Virus record (IMG/VR): IMGVR_UViG_3300022413_000014
Span: 1 to 55,978 of that record
Source of the DNA: a virus
Strand: one strand, 5' to 3'
DNA length: 55,978 nt
The notes under the pieces: model-generated
Database searches by the model: none
Told to the model about the DNA's origin: nothing
What the model saw: the letters and a program-made list of their open reading frames with translations, nothing else
Program-made: the position numbers and the translations under genes
In this document: positions 14,306-48,044 of the stretch, one piece after another
Layout: each line of letters starts with the position of its first letter
Position numbering within the stretch: position 1 is the stretch's first letter

Positions 14306-14725
14306 TTAGGACTGCGGCAGTGTCAAAGTCAAAGAGGTAAGACGTACTTCCTGTGCGGCAGTAATAGATAAGTTGTCGATCTCGAAATCTCCTCCGCCAG
14401 AAGTAATAGTGACGTCGCCCGTCCATTTGACCACGGCATCGCCGAGCACCGCGCCATAGCCGGCCGTGCCGGTATTGTCCGCCGAGGCGTCGGTGAGCGG
14501 TACGCCGAGAAGGGTGGCGACAGCACCCGAACCGGATGCGGCGGCAGCACCGAAGGCCGGGTCCTGCAGGGTGAAGGTGGCGAGCACCGTGCCGGTGAGC
14601 GCGCCATTGACTGCCGGCTGCGTGCCGGTGCGGATTTCAATGGTAGCGGCGGCACCGATGTCGACATCGTCGACGATACCATCGCAGCCGGCTTCGACCG
14701 TGGCGTCATAGATCCTGAGAGTCAT
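14306..14725 (-). CDS. Strand-rich structural-type protein, 139 aa
   Basis: 139 residues, poor in Lys and Arg, rich in Thr, Ala, Gly and Val in short strand-like runs, as in phage decoration or fibre-associated proteins. No family is recognised. It is the last gene of the leftward virion run, starting with a four-base overlap from the repeat-fibre gene, so it may cap or bind that fibre. Its make-up resembles the 36563-37066 head-region protein. Confidence 0.6.
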   Translation of the reverse strand: MTLRIYDATVEAGCDGIVDDVDIGAAATIEIRTGTQPAVNGALTGTVLATFTLQDPAFGAAAASGSGAVATLLGVPLTDASADNTGTAGYGAVLGDAVVKWTGDVTITSGGGDFEIDNLSITAAQEVRLTSLTLTLPQS

Positions 14726-16986
14726 GGGCTTTGTCCTTGTAGAGTTGACATCGCGCGCACCGCCACGAGCTGACGATCAACGCATTTTTGGCCGGCAAGC
14801 CCGATCGACGGCCTTTGACCGATGATCAGCTGCGCGGCTTGGGTGGGCAGGAAGGCGGTCTGCGCCGCCGTTAGCTCTGCCACGACATCGACCTCGCTGG
14901 TCTGCACGGCGAGGAACGCCGACTGATCCGAGGACAAGGTCGAAAGGAGCCCCAGGACAGCGCTCTGCTGCGCCAGGAAAGCGATGTGGTCGCCGGTAAG
15001 GCCTGGTGCCGTCAGTTCCAGGGTCGACGCCTGAGCGGCCAGGAAAGCGGCCTGAGATGCGGAAATTGACGCTAAAGCGTCAAACGCGGCCGCTGACGTC
15101 GCCAAAAACGCGGTCTGGGTCGCGTTGACCTTGGCGATCAGGTCGACGTCGGTGGCCTGTGTGGCGAGGAAGGCGGCCTGATCACCGGCAACGTCGACCA
15201 CCACCTCGACGGTCGAGGATTGGGTGGCGAGAAAGGCGGTATGCTGACCGACGATGCCGGCTTGGGTGAGAATGAGCGCGCTTTGGGTGGCCAGGAACGC
15301 GGACTGGTCAGACGTGATCTGAAGGGCCACCGTGAGCGCTGACGCCTGGGTCGCCAAGAAGGCGCTTTGCCCAGCGGTGATGTCGGCAATCAGATCGAGG
15401 CTGGCGCTCTGCGTCGCGAGGAACGCCGTCTGCGCGCCATCGACGCTGGCGATCAGGTCAAGGACGGAGGCTTGCGTTGCCAAGAACGCCTGGTGATCAG
15501 CGGTGATGCCGGCCTGGGTGGTGATCGACGCGGCTTGGGTCGCGAGGAACGCATCCTGATCAGCGGCAATATCCGCGATCAGGTCAAGGGGTGCCGCCTG
15601 CGTTGCCAGAAACGCGGATTGTGCTGCCGTAACATCGGCGATGAGATCCAGCGTTGAGGCTTGGGTGGCGAGAAACGCCTGATGGTCGCCACTAACATCA
15701 GAGCTAATGATGCCTTCCAGGGCCGCCGTTTGCGTAGCCAGGAAGGCCGCCTGCGCCGCGCTGACCTTGCTGATTAGGTCAAGAGGGGCAGCCTGCGTTG
15801 CCAGGAAGGCGTCTTGCGCCGCTGTTGCCTTGCCGATCAGCTTGGCCGCCGCCGTTTGCGTCGCGAGAAACGCATCCTGATCAGCGGTAATATCGCGCTC
15901 GCGGACCAGCGTTGCCGATTGTGTGGCCAAGAACGCGTCGTGGTCGGCGGTGATCGAGCGATCCGGTCCAGCCGCCACGAACTCATAGGCACCGATCGAT
16001 GGCGTCGCCGGCCTGGTGACGCCTGCGATGTCGATGGTGGCGTCAACCCGGCTGTCTGGCAGCGATCCGCTGCGATCCGTGCCCGCCAGATAGAGATCTG
16101 AATCTGTATCGAGTATAGTCAGATCAAAATTGGTAGGGTCCGTCCATGCGTCGGCGTGAACGATGTTAGCAACAAACCCAGTAGCCGAAATGTCGTTGAA
16201 AGCTAGATTATTATCGGCTGCGTTATTCGCGCCGTTAATGGTAGCGACCGCGTCTTCAGAATGGAAAATAGTCTGTGAAGCGCCCTTTCCGTTGACTTCA
16301 GCATAGCCGTTAAAGCCACCAACCGTATTGTAGATATTGGCAACTGCTGTGGTGGCACCGCCGCGAGGGTACATATAACCTTGTCGCTGGCCGCCGTTGG
16401 TTTCCGTGATGGCGCATCGGTAACCAGTGCAAAATTCAAGATTTATCGTGCCATCATAATTAAAAAGATCGACCCATCCGCGATCGGCGTCGATCATGAC
16501 AGTATTGTAGAGCGTTAGCGGCGTATTGGAATCGCTCTGAGTGTAAAAACAGTCACCGTCAGTTGTGGTTCTGTTACGGGCCTGGGCGTCGAGAACACAA
16601 CGATCAACCAGTATATTGGTGCCAGTGCCGACGCGAATACACTCATTTGAGTTGCCGGAACCCGTTGACAGTTGAACGAGCATTTTTGAAACGCGCGCAA
16701 AGTTCTCGGTTACTTCGATCGAGTGGTCAGCTGCTGTCGGCGCAACGCGCGCGCCAGTTGTTGCATCACCAGCATGGTAAGCTGCGTCCGTCGCCGTCAG
16801 ATGCAGATAATTCGCAATTGTCGGCGTGCCGGTCGATCCGCCAAGCGTCAGGTTTTCGGCATACGCCGCGTTGTTCTGAACTTCGACGATGTAATCTTCC
16901 GTCGAGACGTCGGATGCGTCGATCGCAGCCTGAATGGTGGTGTAGTCAGCGCCGCCGCCAGAATTGACTGTTACGGTCGTCGTCAT
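14722..16986 (-). CDS. Fibre-like protein: beta-helix plus 18 tandem 21-residue repeats
   Basis: 754 residues. The first 340 or so look like a right-handed beta-helix (DYTTIQAAIDAS start, then many Asn/Thr/Gly-rich turns), as in pectate-lyase-like and tailspike proteins. Residues about 345-725 are eighteen near-regular 21-residue units built on AFLATQ (for example ITADQDAFLATQAAPLDLIA). Because 21 is three heptads and hydrophobic residues recur, the repeats may form a long helical shaft. The order is unusual: beta-helix N-terminal and shaft C-terminal. The role as receptor-binding or side fibre is inferred. ATG 16986 ends at the stop of the 16987 gene. Confidence 0.75.
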   Translation of the reverse strand: MTTTVTVNSGGGADYTTIQAAIDASDVSTEDYIVEVQNNAAYAENLTLGGSTGTPTIANYLHLTATDAAYHAGDATTGARVAPTAADHSIEVTENFARVSKMLVQLSTGSGNSNECIRVGTGTNILVDRCVLDAQARNRTTTDGDCFYTQSDSNTPLTLYNTVMIDADRGWVDLFNYDGTINLEFCTGYRCAITETNGGQRQGYMYPRGGATTAVANIYNTVGGFNGYAEVNGKGASQTIFHSEDAVATINGANNAADNNLAFNDISATGFVANIVHADAWTDPTNFDLTILDTDSDLYLAGTDRSGSLPDSRVDATIDIAGVTRPATPSIGAYEFVAAGPDRSITADHDAFLATQSATLVRERDITADQDAFLATQTAAAKLIGKATAAQDAFLATQAAPLDLISKVSAAQAAFLATQTAALEGIISSDVSGDHQAFLATQASTLDLIADVTAAQSAFLATQAAPLDLIADIAADQDAFLATQAASITTQAGITADHQAFLATQASVLDLIASVDGAQTAFLATQSASLDLIADITAGQSAFLATQASALTVALQITSDQSAFLATQSALILTQAGIVGQHTAFLATQSSTVEVVVDVAGDQAAFLATQATDVDLIAKVNATQTAFLATSAAAFDALASISASQAAFLAAQASTLELTAPGLTGDHIAFLAQQSAVLGLLSTLSSDQSAFLAVQTSEVDVVAELTAAQTAFLPTQAAQLIIGQRPSIGLAGQKCVDRQLVAVRAMSTLQGQSP
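14816..15960 (-). repeat. Eighteen tandem repeats of about 63 bp
   Basis: The region coding the shaft of the 14722-16986 protein. Units are 63 bp (21 residues), a few with one or two extra codons. The AFLATQ core is kept while the rest varies, and several units share near-identical DNA. Unequal recombination could change the number of units. Confidence 0.8.
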
Positions 16987-43792: not shown

Positions 43793-43827
43793 GACTAGGG
43801 CTCCCCGGAAGTCTGTGGGGTCTATGG

Positions 43828-44064
43828 CTAGGGCTCATCAATCCATTCCTGGTATTCACCGCAGCATTCATGGAATGCGGTTATAGGCCAGATCGCCATG
43901 GGATATCGGCCTTCATTGGTCATAAAGGTCTTGCCGTCATGGATGACCGGGGCACGGCGACGGCAAAGCCCGTAGAACGGCCCACCGATCGGCGCTTCGT
44001 TCTGAACGCCTTCGAGTTCGACCTCATGCCAGAATCGGCAGGTGTCGCAGCATTCGCGCTTCAT
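43828..44064 (-). CDS. Cysteine-rich zinc-ribbon-like protein, 78 aa
   Basis: 78 residues with five or more cysteines (ECCDTCRFW at the start, GLCRRRAP mid, HECCGEY near the end), a likely zinc site. Its ATG overlaps the stop of the minor head gene. No family is recognised beyond the metal-binding pattern. Confidence 0.65.
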   Translation of the reverse strand: MKRECCDTCRFWHEVELEGVQNEAPIGGPFYGLCRRRAPVIHDGKTFMTNEGRYPMAIWPITAFHECCGEYQEWIDEP

Positions 44065-46520
44065 TCCAGATAATCCTCAGGATCAAGACCGGCGGCCAAA
44101 AACGCGTCCTTCTCCGTCTTGGCCAGCTCGGCAAGCGTAAGCGGTCGCCCGTGGCGGTCAACTAGCCTGCCGATCGATAGATTGCCCCTGCGGAACAGCC
44201 TGGACCGGGTCACGCCCAATAAGTTGCTCTGATCGGAAACGCTCAATCCGTTAAGAAAATCTTCTGACGACGGCACGCCGGGGATGCCGCCGACCTGTTG
44301 CCGGATGCTTTCACGCACGAAGCCATCGAAGCGTGCGCGCTGGCGCGCGGTGAGCTGACCGACCGAGCTGACCGGTTGCATGTTCTCGCGCCGGGTGAAG
44401 TCCCTGAGATAGCGGCGGCGCTCGTCTGACGTCAGTTGTTGCCGCACCAGCGCGGTGTTGGAGATGAACGGCACCCGCCGTGATCGGCAGTTGTGGTGGG
44501 CTGGAGGATATATTCCTTTTCCTGCGTCAAAAATCCTACCATTAAGGTCTAAGCAGATGTGGCTATTATGAGCAACCACCCCGCCGACGATAAAGCTATG
44601 ATCATCGGCTACTTCGATGTCATAGACGACCGCGCCGGCATTGACCGCCTCAACCCCGGCAACGGCAGCGTCATCTGGACATTCGTTCGTTTCGCTTCGG
44701 CCTGCATGTGACAGCGTCGACATCGCGTCGCCAGATTGCTCAACGCGTTCGCCTTCCGTGAATCCGTAAAGTTGTGGAACGGAATGATGTGGTCGACATC
44801 CAACGAACGCCCTGCCTCGGCTTTCTCCTTGGCCTCGGTCTTGCCACAGTCGACGCAAGTGTGGACATCCCGTTTCAAGACGCGCCGCCTGATAGCCTTC
44901 CAGCCGATGCCCCGAGCGCTCGACGTGCGACCGCCGCCTTTCCAGTTCGGATGAGCTTGTCCTGTGAAAGCCTTGCTGATCTTGTCCTTGCGCGCCTGGT
45001 TGTTTGACGTCCATGCACGATTGCATGCTTGCGAGCAGACCTTGCCGCCATTGTGCGCCACCATCGCCATGCCGAATTTGCGTTTGATCGGCTTGACCGG
45101 GGAAAACATGGCTCGGCAATTCACGCAACGGCGTGGCCTTGGCTTTTTGGCCGCCACCCGACAGGCATGCGAACAATATTTCTTCTTGGTTCCACCCGCC
45201 GGCAAGCGCTGCCCACAATGAGCGCATAAACCGCGTTGCTCGATCCGCCATTGATCGTAGCAAGCGCGCGAACAGAAAATCTTGTCTGACGCCCCGCTGA
45301 CCCGTGTCTGACAATGGCCGCGCAGGACTTCCTTGCCGCAGCGATGACACGCATTTCGATGTATGCGACGGCCCGCTGCCTTGCAGGCATTGCCGCAATA
45401 AGTTTGATGTGGATGACCTGAGAAAACGCGAAAGCGTTGACCACATGTCGCGCAGTGGCGATGATCGTTTGGCATGGGCGACTCCTCCAAAGTCATTCAT
45501 GCTCGCGAGGATCATCGTTTGTGCCGATGGTCCTCGCTGCGTTTTGGCAAGGCGGTCACCGTTCCTAAGCGTTCCGGCTTCCTGCCATGAGCCGTCAGGT
45601 CGAAGGAACAGATGATCGCTGGTGCAGGTAAAGCTTTCGCCATTGGCTAGCATCACGCGTACCAGATCATCACTATATTTCGCTTGCGTGGCCCGTACAA
45701 CCCGAGGCGCGCCGCTGCCGCCGATGACCAGGTCTCCAGGTTGTATCGTCTCTATGGGGCGTTTGCCAGTGGGCGTCTCGATCAGCGTGCCGGCAACAAA
45801 ACACGTCCTATCATCGAGCACGGCCGCCCAGATCTCTTTCTTGAACAGCCGCTTATTGGCCTCGGCGAACTCACGTCCGGCAGCGGCGGCGATGTGGGTG
45901 ACCGAAGTGCGCACGATGGTCTGCGCCTGGGCTCGGGTGATCTGGGTCGCGCCGTCACGACCGGCCAGCTCAGCGGTGCCGACGATGCGCGCAGCAATGG
46001 CGTTGACGGTCTCGCCCTGGGTTAGGCCGATGCGGATTTCGTTCATGATGCGGCGGCGCTCGTCCGCTTCAAGCAGCCGCGTCCAGTCCTTGAGGATACG
46101 GCCCTGAAACGGCCTCGACGTCACAATCTTTCTCAGCTCGGATGAGGTCGGCAGCCTGGCCGTAGTGCTGACCGGGGCCGCCATCTTGGTGAGGTTGGCG
46201 AGAAAGCGCGGCTCGTCCAGCGCGATGGCGCTGAGTTCGCCGGTCAGCTCATCCAAGAGACCGCTAAAGGCAGGCGACCTGACCTTCTCGATCGTCTGCT
46301 CCAGGCGGGAAAGGCGCTGGCGTGCCGTCCGGTCTAAAGCGAAGCCACCGCCCGCTGACGACTGCAGCGGCGCGGTCTTGGCGATGATCTGGTCCTTGAG
46401 GTCGCGCTCGGTCCTTTGCAGGTGATTTAGGATCTGGGAGCGCATCCGATTCGACACCCGTACCAGGCCGATCTGACGCCTGATGCTGCTGTCTAGGATG
46501 ATCTCGTTGGCCGTTGGCAT
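44061..46520 (-). CDS. Minor head protein (MuF/SPP1 gp7 type) interrupted by an intein
   Basis: 819 residues in one open frame. Residues 1-239 and 653-819 are the head protein: helical N-terminus, AQTIVRTSVTHIAAAAGREFA, then AVLDDRT joined after splicing to SHICLDLNGRIFD and the PPAHHNCRSR zinc-type motif of MuF proteins. Residues 240-652 are an intein (see next entry). The spliced product would be 406 residues. MuF proteins sit in the head near the portal and help assembly or DNA entry. Location beside the portal fits. Confidence 0.85.
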   Translation of the reverse strand: MPTANEIILDSSIRRQIGLVRVSNRMRSQILNHLQRTERDLKDQIIAKTAPLQSSAGGGFALDRTARQRLSRLEQTIEKVRSPAFSGLLDELTGELSAIALDEPRFLANLTKMAAPVSTTARLPTSSELRKIVTSRPFQGRILKDWTRLLEADERRRIMNEIRIGLTQGETVNAIAARIVGTAELAGRDGATQITRAQAQTIVRTSVTHIAAAAGREFAEANKRLFKKEIWAAVLDDRTCFVAGTLIETPTGKRPIETIQPGDLVIGGSGAPRVVRATQAKYSDDLVRVMLANGESFTCTSDHLFLRPDGSWQEAGTLRNGDRLAKTQRGPSAQTMILASMNDFGGVAHAKRSSPLRDMWSTLSRFLRSSTSNLLRQCLQGSGPSHTSKCVSSLRQGSPARPLSDTGQRGVRQDFLFARLLRSMADRATRFMRSLWAALAGGWNQEEILFACLSGGGQKAKATPLRELPSHVFPGQADQTQIRHGDGGAQWRQGLLASMQSCMDVKQPGAQGQDQQGFHRTSSSELERRRSHVERSGHRLEGYQAARLETGCPHLRRLWQDRGQGESRGRAFVGCRPHHSVPQLYGFTEGERVEQSGDAMSTLSHAGRSETNECPDDAAVAGVEAVNAGAVVYDIEVADDHSFIVGGVVAHNSHICLDLNGRIFDAGKGIYPPAHHNCRSRRVPFISNTALVRQQLTSDERRRYLRDFTRRENMQPVSSVGQLTARQRARFDGFVRESIRQQVGGIPGVPSSEDFLNGLSVSDQSNLLGVTRSRLFRRGNLSIGRLVDRHGRPLTLAELAKTEKDAFLAAGLDPEDYLE
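44565..45803 (-). mobile_element. Intein in the minor head protein, with a nested HNH gene
   Basis: The intein starts with Cys240 (TGT, 45803-45801) and ends with Asn652 (44567-44565), followed by Ser. Block A is CFVAGTLIETPTGKRPIETI, block B holds TSDH in GESFTCTSDHLFLRP, block F is VYDIEVADDHSF and the end is VVAHN-S, all hallmarks of protein splicing. Between blocks B and F the frame runs open across the HNH gene but its translation is low-quality, with no nuclease domain. The insertion point is the conserved DDRT-SHIC active region of the MuF domain. Confidence 0.9.
44609..45475 (-). CDS. HNH homing endonuclease nested out of frame in the intein
   Basis: 288 residues in a frame shifted +1 from the intein. 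ATG 45475 follows GGAGGA at ideal spacing. The protein has at least four Cys-x2-Cys zinc units (CATCGQRF, CHRCGKEV, CAHCGQRL, CVNCRAMF) and a C-terminal HNH core: CVDCGKTEAKEK, then DVDHIIPFHNF and CRRCHMQAE. It would cut intein-less alleles so the element spreads. The last residues overlap intein block F. In usual inteins the nuclease is in frame; here it is a separate, overlapping gene. Confidence 0.88.
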   Translation of the reverse strand: MPNDHRHCATCGQRFRVFSGHPHQTYCGNACKAAGRRIHRNACHRCGKEVLRGHCQTRVSGASDKIFCSRACYDQWRIEQRGLCAHCGQRLPAGGTKKKYCSHACRVAAKKPRPRRCVNCRAMFSPVKPIKRKFGMAMVAHNGGKVCSQACNRAWTSNNQARKDKISKAFTGQAHPNWKGGGRTSSARGIGWKAIRRRVLKRDVHTCVDCGKTEAKEKAEAGRSLDVDHIIPFHNFTDSRKANALSNLATRCRRCHMQAEAKRTNVQMTLPLPGLRRSMPARSSMTSK

Positions 46521-46529
46521 TGATAGTCA

Positions 46530-48044
46530 TCATTCGCCGTCATTGCTGCGGGAATCGTTTTCGTTTTCGTCACCGGGCTGCTCGAAGGGCTGGCCAAAAC
46601 CGCCATTGGCCGGGGCCATGGATGACATCGCGGCCTTGTCGAGGATATCGGCTGGAATGACGCCCTCTTCCAGTTCAATCTCCTCGATCTCCTCTTCGAG
46701 GGTGCGGCTGGTAACATCACGCTTGAGCATAATCTCGTTGATGGTGCGATAGGAAATGACGCCGCCGCGCTGCTTGAAGGTCAGCATTTCATTCAGCTCG
46801 CTGGCCTCCATCGGATCGTCGGCAAAATCAAGATTGGGCTCGATAAGCACGCCGGCATCATCGACGCCTAGCCAGCGCGCGGCCATGCGCAGCGCTTCCT
46901 GCATGCCGGCGGCCGAGGCCTTGGCGATCGACGTCAGGCTGGCGGTCTGGGCGGCTACACGGATGCGTAGGGCATCACCGGACTCGACCGCAGAGCCACG
47001 CTGCACCAGGCGCGCCGATAGCGCGTTGGCGATCTGGTAGTCCTCGCCGAGGTTGTTGAGCTGGAACTGGATGCCCCGGCTGTCGACGCCGATGAACTTA
47101 GCGTCGCCGCCCTCCTGCATGGCGATGCGCGCGCCGGGGCCGATTTGGATGTCCTCGGTGAGCGTGTTGCCGATGGTGACCAAGGTTTCCTGCCCGGTCA
47201 TGAATAGCGCGTGCCGAAGGTCAGCCTCGCCTAGATAGATCGACATCGAGCGGTTAGCGAGGCCAAGCAGCGGCGGCAGATCGACATTGATGTCGATGTC
47301 GTGGGGGCCGATGAATACGAACGGGATTTCGCCCAAGGTCTGGCCGCGCAGCAGCACCGGCTGGGTTGCGCTGACGTCGAAGGTTTCATCCTCCATGAAC
47401 ATGCCCGAGCTATAGGTGCCGGCGCTCTCGTTCTCAGCGAATTCACCTAGGACCAGGACGCGGTATTTGCGTTCGGTCTTCCATTCCAGCCCGTCGCGGA
47501 CGTTCTCGGTTTCATCCAGCACGACGATGTTGAGGTTTTGCTTGGTGGGATCGCCGGCCTCGCCGTCATCCCAGTTGATTACGCTTTCCGCCGTGTAGGT
47601 CGACAGCAGCGGCAGGATCGACGGGATCTGTACTGGATCTTGCGGAACGTCGACATGAAGCCCCATGCGACCGGTCACTAGCTGTTGCTCGTGGATCTTG
47701 CGCAAGAGATCGACCAGGCTTTCGCCAAGGATGGTCGCCTTGTCCCTAAGCGGTTCCATGGCCTCGGGAAGCTGGATTGACGGCGGCTTGCGGTTGAGGA
47801 TGCCGACCAGAATGTCGACCGTGTCCTTCATCACCTCGGGGAAGACCGCGCGTCGAAGATAGGCTTGATAGCGGCGAAGCCCGTTCTGGCCGGTCAGCAT
47901 GCCTTCAAGATACATGCCTTCGGTCGCGGGGAGATAGGCGAGCCCCTTGGCCTTGACTGCATTCTGGCCGGCATGGCTATCGCGACAAAGCGTCCAAAGG
48001 TCGATGTGGGCCTGATAATCGGGATGCGTGCTGTCGATGGTCAT
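46530..48044 (-). CDS. Portal protein (DUF4055-like)
   Basis: 504 residues. The pattern (AYLPATEGMYLEGMLTGQNGLRRYQAYLRRAVFP near the start, then ESLVDLLRKIHEQQLVTGRMG and GEIPFVFIGPHDIDINVDLPPLLGLA, NRSMSIYLGEADL later) matches DUF4055 portal proteins. A long C-terminal helix and acidic end follow. Twelve copies form the DNA channel of the head. It is directly before the minor head gene, as is normal. Confidence 0.85.
   Translation of the reverse strand: MTIDSTHPDYQAHIDLWTLCRDSHAGQNAVKAKGLAYLPATEGMYLEGMLTGQNGLRRYQAYLRRAVFPEVMKDTVDILVGILNRKPPSIQLPEAMEPLRDKATILGESLVDLLRKIHEQQLVTGRMGLHVDVPQDPVQIPSILPLLSTYTAESVINWDDGEAGDPTKQNLNIVVLDETENVRDGLEWKTERKYRVLVLGEFAENESAGTYSSGMFMEDETFDVSATQPVLLRGQTLGEIPFVFIGPHDIDINVDLPPLLGLANRSMSIYLGEADLRHALFMTGQETLVTIGNTLTEDIQIGPGARIAMQEGGDAKFIGVDSRGIQFQLNNLGEDYQIANALSARLVQRGSAVESGDALRIRVAAQTASLTSIAKASAAGMQEALRMAARWLGVDDAGVLIEPNLDFADDPMEASELNEMLTFKQRGGVISYRTINEIMLKRDVTSRTLEEEIEEIELEEGVIPADILDKAAMSSMAPANGGFGQPFEQPGDENENDSRSNDGE

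Follow-up and report, generated by a model that had tools for sequence, protein, structure and literature searches.

An HNH endonuclease gene nested out of frame in the intein of a phage head gene, and other phage inteins with overlapping nuclease genes

Introduction

How can a phage gene hold an intein whose DNA also carries, in a different reading frame, the gene of a homing endonuclease? Canonical inteins bear an in-frame LAGLIDADG or HNH domain, PI-SceI being an example, and the element considered here resembles them in combining a Hint splicing fold with a homing endonuclease. Its nuclease, however, lies outside the intein polypeptide. The DNA analysed, hereafter the window, is the whole 55,978 bp of an IMG/VR virus record belonging to an uncultivated siphophage with portal, scaffold, major head, tape-measure and DnaB-like helicase genes, and the allele in question is known from this one metagenomic contig. 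Elsewhere in the window, an ORF of 754 aa at 14722-16986(-) has no PHROG match.

An earlier, sequence-only reading of the window had placed a complete intein at 44565-45803 and, in the +1 frame within it, an HNH gene at 44609-45475, and had implied that such a fully overlapping form was unique. Recomputation of the ORFs and searches against Pfam, TIGR and PHROG reproduce these coordinates and frames. The uniqueness did not stand, as the overlapping form is found again in further genes and also with the nuclease antisense to the intein.

Results

The interrupted gene encodes a MuF-type head morphogenesis (minor head) protein and occupies positions 44061..46520 on the minus strand, as do all window features described below. 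It forms a single open frame of 819 codons, and not the two ORFs of a split intein; the 819-aa product matches phrog_241 with E=1.6e-82, with the Phage_Mu_F match remaining under the Pfam cut-off. The intein, at 44565..45803, comprises 413 aa (CFVAGTLIETP...VVAHN, followed by Ser+1), with its Cys1 codon at 45803-45801 and its final Asn codon at 44567-44565. Blocks A, B, F and G, the His-Asn end and the +1 nucleophile are all present in frame with the host, and the host ORF is recognised by the intein families of Pfam (PF14890 and PF13403; Intein_splicing E=4.6e-9, Hint_2 4.7e-9) and by TIGR01443 and TIGR01445. Upstream lies an N-extein of 239 aa (45804..46520) ending in ..VLDDRT, and downstream a C-extein of 167 aa, SHICLDLNG..., which together with its stop codon takes up 44061..44564. 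Both exteins align to intein-less MuF homologues, which occur in 448 annotated phage records and also in almost all loci of an IMG/VR set of 80. These alleles run continuously across the motif LD-x-RT^[S/T], which fixes the insertion point exactly and predicts a spliced product of 406 aa. The intein would excise itself and ligate the exteins.

Structure prediction divides the intein into two confident ends and a long middle. In the AF2 model of the 413-aa intein the ends reach pLDDT 93-96, whereas residues 92-389 mostly stay below 65 and many below 50. The N-terminal splicing segment (residues 1-89, blocks A and B, 45537..45803; pLDDT about 95) lies outside the overlap with the HNH gene, and the C-terminal segment (residues 390-413, blocks F and G) maps to 44565..44636 with pLDDT about 93. 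According to the model, the two ends make up a Hint domain, and the middle, when translated in the intein frame, forms a disordered loop; Foldseek relates the predicted structure to the MchDnaB-1 (E 2.5e-6), gp41-1 and Mtu RecA inteins. A nuclease domain in the intein frame is thus not found, the middle being unstructured there and the HNH domain being in +1.

The nested gene spans 44609..45475 and encodes an HNH endonuclease of 288 aa (PF01844 1.6e-8; phrog_1271 8.9e-24). Its ATG at 45475 is 1045 nt from the host start, and 1045 mod 3 = 1, which gives the +1 frame. The ribosome-binding site that the sequence-only reading had pointed out is present as a Shine-Dalgarno-like GGAGGA at 45483..45488, 7 nt before this ATG; a second in-frame ATG stands upstream, at 45496. 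The protein is laid out as an array of zinc fingers followed by a C-terminal HNH domain at 44699..44857, where PF01844 matches residues 214-266 of a 295-aa translation, and the HNH motif with its zinc ligands can be aligned to those of free-standing HNH proteins. Its family and its location suggest that the protein is an active endonuclease that would cut the intein-less allele, and the ribosome-binding site suggests that it is translated separately.

At its 3' end the nested gene enters intein block F, as had been proposed. The HNH stop codon falls 44 nt before the end of the intein, inside VYDIEVA^DD, and the HNH tail and block F consequently have bases in common. This doubly coding stretch, 44609..44636, corresponds to a high-pLDDT strand of the Hint fold, and most of the HNH tail encoded there is missing from the closest relatives of the nuclease, the loci L183 and L184.

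Is the intein frame open across the HNH gene by chance? The absence of stops had been remarked upon from the sequence, and it proves far from what the HNH protein would leave by itself. Given the HNH protein sequence and the codon usage of the phage, the intein frame should contain 10.7 stops, but it has none (P=4e-6; P=6e-7 with the codon usage of the gene itself). None of 3119 windows of 288 codons taken from the other genes of this phage is open in the same shifted frame. A site-wise test leads to the same result. To create a stop in the intein frame, an HNH codon must end in T and the next codon must begin with AA, AG or GA. Of the HNH codons followed by such a codon, 0/59 end in T, as against 57/229 elsewhere in the gene (Fisher p=5.8e-7). 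In three HNH relatives, split or free-standing, whose DNA is not shared with an intein frame, no significant stop avoidance is seen (28/86 vs 66/206, p=1; 22/89 vs 54/149, p=0.08; 12/71 vs 38/242, p=0.85). We conclude from these tests that the intein frame across the HNH gene is held open by selection; the stop expectation and the site-wise comparison lead us to reject a chance open frame in GC-rich DNA.

The relatives of the locus were collected with the HNH core as query, which brought in 80 loci; IMG/VR scans with the single HNH or host protein found nothing. In none of the 80 does an open host frame with intein blocks extend over the nuclease. The two closest HNH relatives, L183 (45% identical over 230 aa) and L184 (37.5% over 290 aa), both from IMG/VR, carry the same intein at the same site of MuF genes, with the same HNH family, in the order MuF-IntN with a stop, HNH gene, and IntC-MuF as a separate ORF. 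Longer flanks (L265 for L183, L264 for L184) give identities to the window of 43% and 54%, respectively, for IntN, and of 67% over 21 aa for IntC in both. The comparison with split inteins drawn in the sequence-only reading was therefore apt. The same reading had held that close relatives with stops in the intein frame would count against it. Such stops do occur, 22 in L183 and 28 in L184, in the equivalent of the window's intein frame, but they do not refute the overlap: the intein halves of these loci are separate ORFs, which turns the stops into a control. With 22 and 28 stops and no avoidance in the split loci, openness of the intein frame is confined to the contiguous form.

A third arrangement is found in L185:1069-3250(+), where a related HNH gene directly follows an intein-less MuF gene and represents a candidate nuclease targeting the intein site from outside. 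The three placements of the HNH gene, beside the MuF gene, between the intein halves and nested, plausibly form an evolutionary series, which may have run in either direction.

Further contiguous inteins were sought by a scan with the intein N-domain, genomes included. It yielded four more cases of a sense-strand nuclease out of frame with an open host frame, two in helicase inteins (L266 and L267) and two in terminase inteins (L286 and L294). The helicase inteins have the geometry of the window with a different nuclease, a DUF559 (Vsr-like) protein with zinc ribbons in the +1 frame (L266:4116-4895(+), L267:4284-4904(+)); in L266, stop-making codons are again avoided (0/68 vs 45/190, p=3e-7). 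The terminase inteins carry an HNH_3 nuclease in the +2 sense frame (L286:4252-4896(+), p=0.008; L294:4258-4752(+), p=0.02). On the opposite strand, an antisense HNH_3 gene lies inside the intein of L318:4137-4853(-) and its copies L320 and L321, in a register unlike that of the EDxHD class described below. Two minor-head-gene inteins contain antisense nuclease-like ORFs, one on a Nostoc linckia contig (L330:4076-4999(-)) and one on a Bacteroidetes MAG contig (L331:4028-4894(-)); both contigs are possibly prophages. Their host frames are open against 14-18 expected stops, and the ORF of L331 has no PHROG match. Since inteins with an in-frame HNH domain (e.g. L272-L274, L277) and mini-inteins (L263, L268) also occur among the related loci, an out-of-frame nuclease is one of several states.

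The largest set came from the relatives of the host gene, where the inteins of L043 (4802-5668(-)) and L084 led to a nuclease on the opposite strand. The antisense loci (L043, L084, L094-L102 and L103-L182) carry an I-Bth0305I-like nuclease gene opposite the intein in 89/89 of those examined (75 non-redundant), mostly in MuF genes. Homologues of the nuclease were found in 121 annotated records of phages of Salmonella, Escherichia, Klebsiella, Pseudomonas, Vibrio, Gordonia, Rhodococcus and Haemophilus, where the overlying gene is mostly annotated as head morphogenesis or minor capsid protein. Many cultured phages of Salmonella, Escherichia, Gordonia, Pseudomonas and Vibrio have the arrangement, Gordonia phage Fosterous and coliphage Snoke among them. 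The protein combines a helix-turn-helix with an EDxHD nuclease; its profile matches I-Bth0305I (3r3p) with E=1.5e-6 and Vsr more weakly, and its AF2 model (pLDDT 86) has I-Bth0305I as the best Foldseek match, with probability 1.00.

The exactly complementary frame is free of stops in 89/89 loci and, with few exceptions, carries blocks B and G of an intein, while the other four frames are closed in all. None of the 89 nuclease genes contains TTA, CTA or TCA, the codons that would interrupt the intein frame, although up to 17 would be expected in AT-rich loci (P down to 1e-9.8). Identity in the intein frame amounts to 0.229, against 0.175 expected from the nuclease sequence alone. The third position of nuclease codons varies most and the second least in nearly all close pairs, L126-L141 being the exception as regards the third position. 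An artefact of the sense frame is rejected as the source of the antisense ORF, given that the exact complementary frame alone is open, together with the pattern at position 3 and a folded protein that matches I-Bth0305I. The nuclease start also usually coincides with intein block F, which is recognisable in 65 of the non-redundant antisense loci. In 63 of these, the strand opposite the His codon of GHVYNL supplies the start codon of the nuclease (51 ATG, 10 GTG, 2 TTG), and in 53 of the 65 the start codon is accompanied by a Shine-Dalgarno sequence of at least 4 bases in the complement of the codons that follow.

A sense motif, [F/L]HGD..GE.EI, was also noted in these loci: the conserved HGD of the intein frame faces the catalytic AVE motif of the nuclease, and could either serve the intein or be imposed by the nuclease.

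The window does not belong to this class. Its nuclease is an HNH protein on the sense strand, and the antisense arrangement is a separate solution.

Discussion

What could be the mode of operation of the locus in the window? We favour, with a probability of roughly 0.86, a contiguous cis-splicing intein in the MuF gene with a homing HNH gene that lies wholly inside it in the +1 frame and is made separately. Ribosomes starting at the head gene would read through in the host frame, and the two ends of the intein would fold as a Hint domain around a disordered loop, the product of reading the HNH gene in the intein frame, and splice to give the 406-aa head protein. Ribosomes entering at GGAGGA and the ATG at 45475 would produce a free zinc-finger HNH nuclease, which would cut intein-less alleles at LD-x-RT^S and thereby promote homing of the whole element. 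The need for the head protein would keep the intein frame free of stops; in L183 and L184 the intein is split, this constraint would be gone, and stops could accumulate. The prediction of the sequence-only reading that a contiguous intein coexists with a separately translated out-of-frame HNH gene thus gains support from the allele-specific stop avoidance, the Hint fold made of two ends, the alignment of the HNH N-terminus, the ribosome-binding site and the lack of an Rfam intron. Against it count the insert of 300 disordered residues, which could impair splicing, and the translational cost of two overlapping frames on one mRNA.

The alternative explanations are each improbable and at odds with at least one of the results above. 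The best of them, to which we allow a small chance, is recent inactivation, with the HNH gene or the intein decaying and the double openness of the DNA a transient state. There are no close relatives by which selection could be gauged, and this leaves some room for decay; the HNH ligands and zinc-finger cysteines, however, are intact across the 288 codons, as are the splicing blocks, and stops could not have been avoided without lasting selection on the intein frame, acting once the HNH gene had acquired its present sequence. A slightly poorer prospect is a sequencing or assembly error, in which a pair of indels displaced an HNH domain that was once in frame. The allele comes from a single metagenomic record, and the related loci L272-L274 and L277 do have in-frame HNH inteins, yet the HNH gene of the window has its own ATG and ribosome site, its N-terminus aligns with the independently translated protein of L184, and two indels alone would neither clear some 11 expected stops nor produce 0/59 against 57/229.

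Programmed +1 ribosomal frameshifting is about as improbable as such an error. It would fuse the HNH protein to the N-terminal half of the intein with no internal initiation, and would suit frames that are one base apart and an HNH region that comes after the N-terminal splicing segment. Against it, a good Shine-Dalgarno sequence and an ATG stand before the HNH region, an upstream stop in the HNH frame confines any shift to a short stretch, and in the split relatives the HNH gene starts independently. HNH genes are often found within group I introns, but removal at the RNA level, with the HNH gene in a self-splicing intron and the intein-like reading incidental, is hardly credible when the intein-block matches are significant, an intron has no need of a frame open throughout, and no intron or other RNA family of Rfam matches at E<=1 over 43800-46600, by which a group I or II intron at the locus is rejected.

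Which known systems does the nested arrangement resemble? Split inteins whose two halves flank a free-standing homing endonuclease gene were reportedly described as ‘fractured genes’ by Dassa et al. in 2009. Like the window, they keep splicing parts and nuclease as separate genes, and L183 and L184 display precisely this layout; in the window, by contrast, the frame is uninterrupted, splicing would act in cis rather than in trans, and the nuclease overlaps wholly. I-Bth0305I is encoded by an intron. This EDxHD homing endonuclease (PDB 3r3p) matches the antisense nucleases in fold and sequence, unlike the HNH nuclease on the sense strand of the window. The nearest published case is the ShiLan domain, which together with the Pacc40 insert represents an out-of-frame HNH gene in phage methylase genes (Arsenault, Gosselin, Gogarten 2025, PMC11855218). 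It shares with the window an HNH gene nested out of frame and a host gene that stays open across the insert. However, it has neither splicing domains nor a ribosome-binding site and is thought to be retained in the protein (PMC11855218), whereas the window combines a full intein with a strong Shine-Dalgarno sequence. The same article cites, for overlapping reading frames, a preprint from the same group by Gosselin et al. (bioRxiv 2025, doi 10.1101/2025.01.02.630785) on actinobacteriophage inteins with ‘non-canonical architecture’. As far as that citation indicates, the preprint may already cover overlapping-frame inteins, and with them part of the present finding; its set consists of actinobacteriophages, which the window phage and most of the present cases are not shown to be.

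Taken more broadly, the loci lead us to a tentative proposal, which we hold at somewhat less than even odds. Besides the in-frame nuclease and the split intein, inteins would have a widespread third architecture, not described as a general one before, in which an independent nuclease gene overprints the intein, either in a second sense frame or antisense to it. In the antisense loci block F would double as the Shine-Dalgarno sequence and start of the nuclease and so lock the register across very divergent phages, and the window would be a sense-frame member, connected through its relatives with split inteins. The least certain part is the absence of a prior description as a general architecture.

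If this proposal is true, the functions of splicing and homing use common bases but not a common polypeptide. The splicing element and the nuclease would be genetically fused yet separately translated, and the dose and regulation of the nuclease could be independent of the host protein. The long ‘junk’ middles of many phage inteins annotated without a nuclease would be accounted for. The HNH gene beside an intein-less gene, between split halves and nested offers a natural series in which the origin of split inteins, or their re-fusion, could be tested. The antisense class is a large and clean example of DNA in which each strand encodes a constrained protein. There is also a warning for annotation pipelines, in which the nested nuclease is overlooked because the longer frame gets called.

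Among the annotated phages, the passages in which papers note inteins make no mention of an antisense nuclease. Two of these phages, Escherichia phage vB-Eco-KMB36 (L101) and Snoke (L097), have annotated minor-head inteins; each carries an antisense nuclease ORF, and their insertion sites differ.
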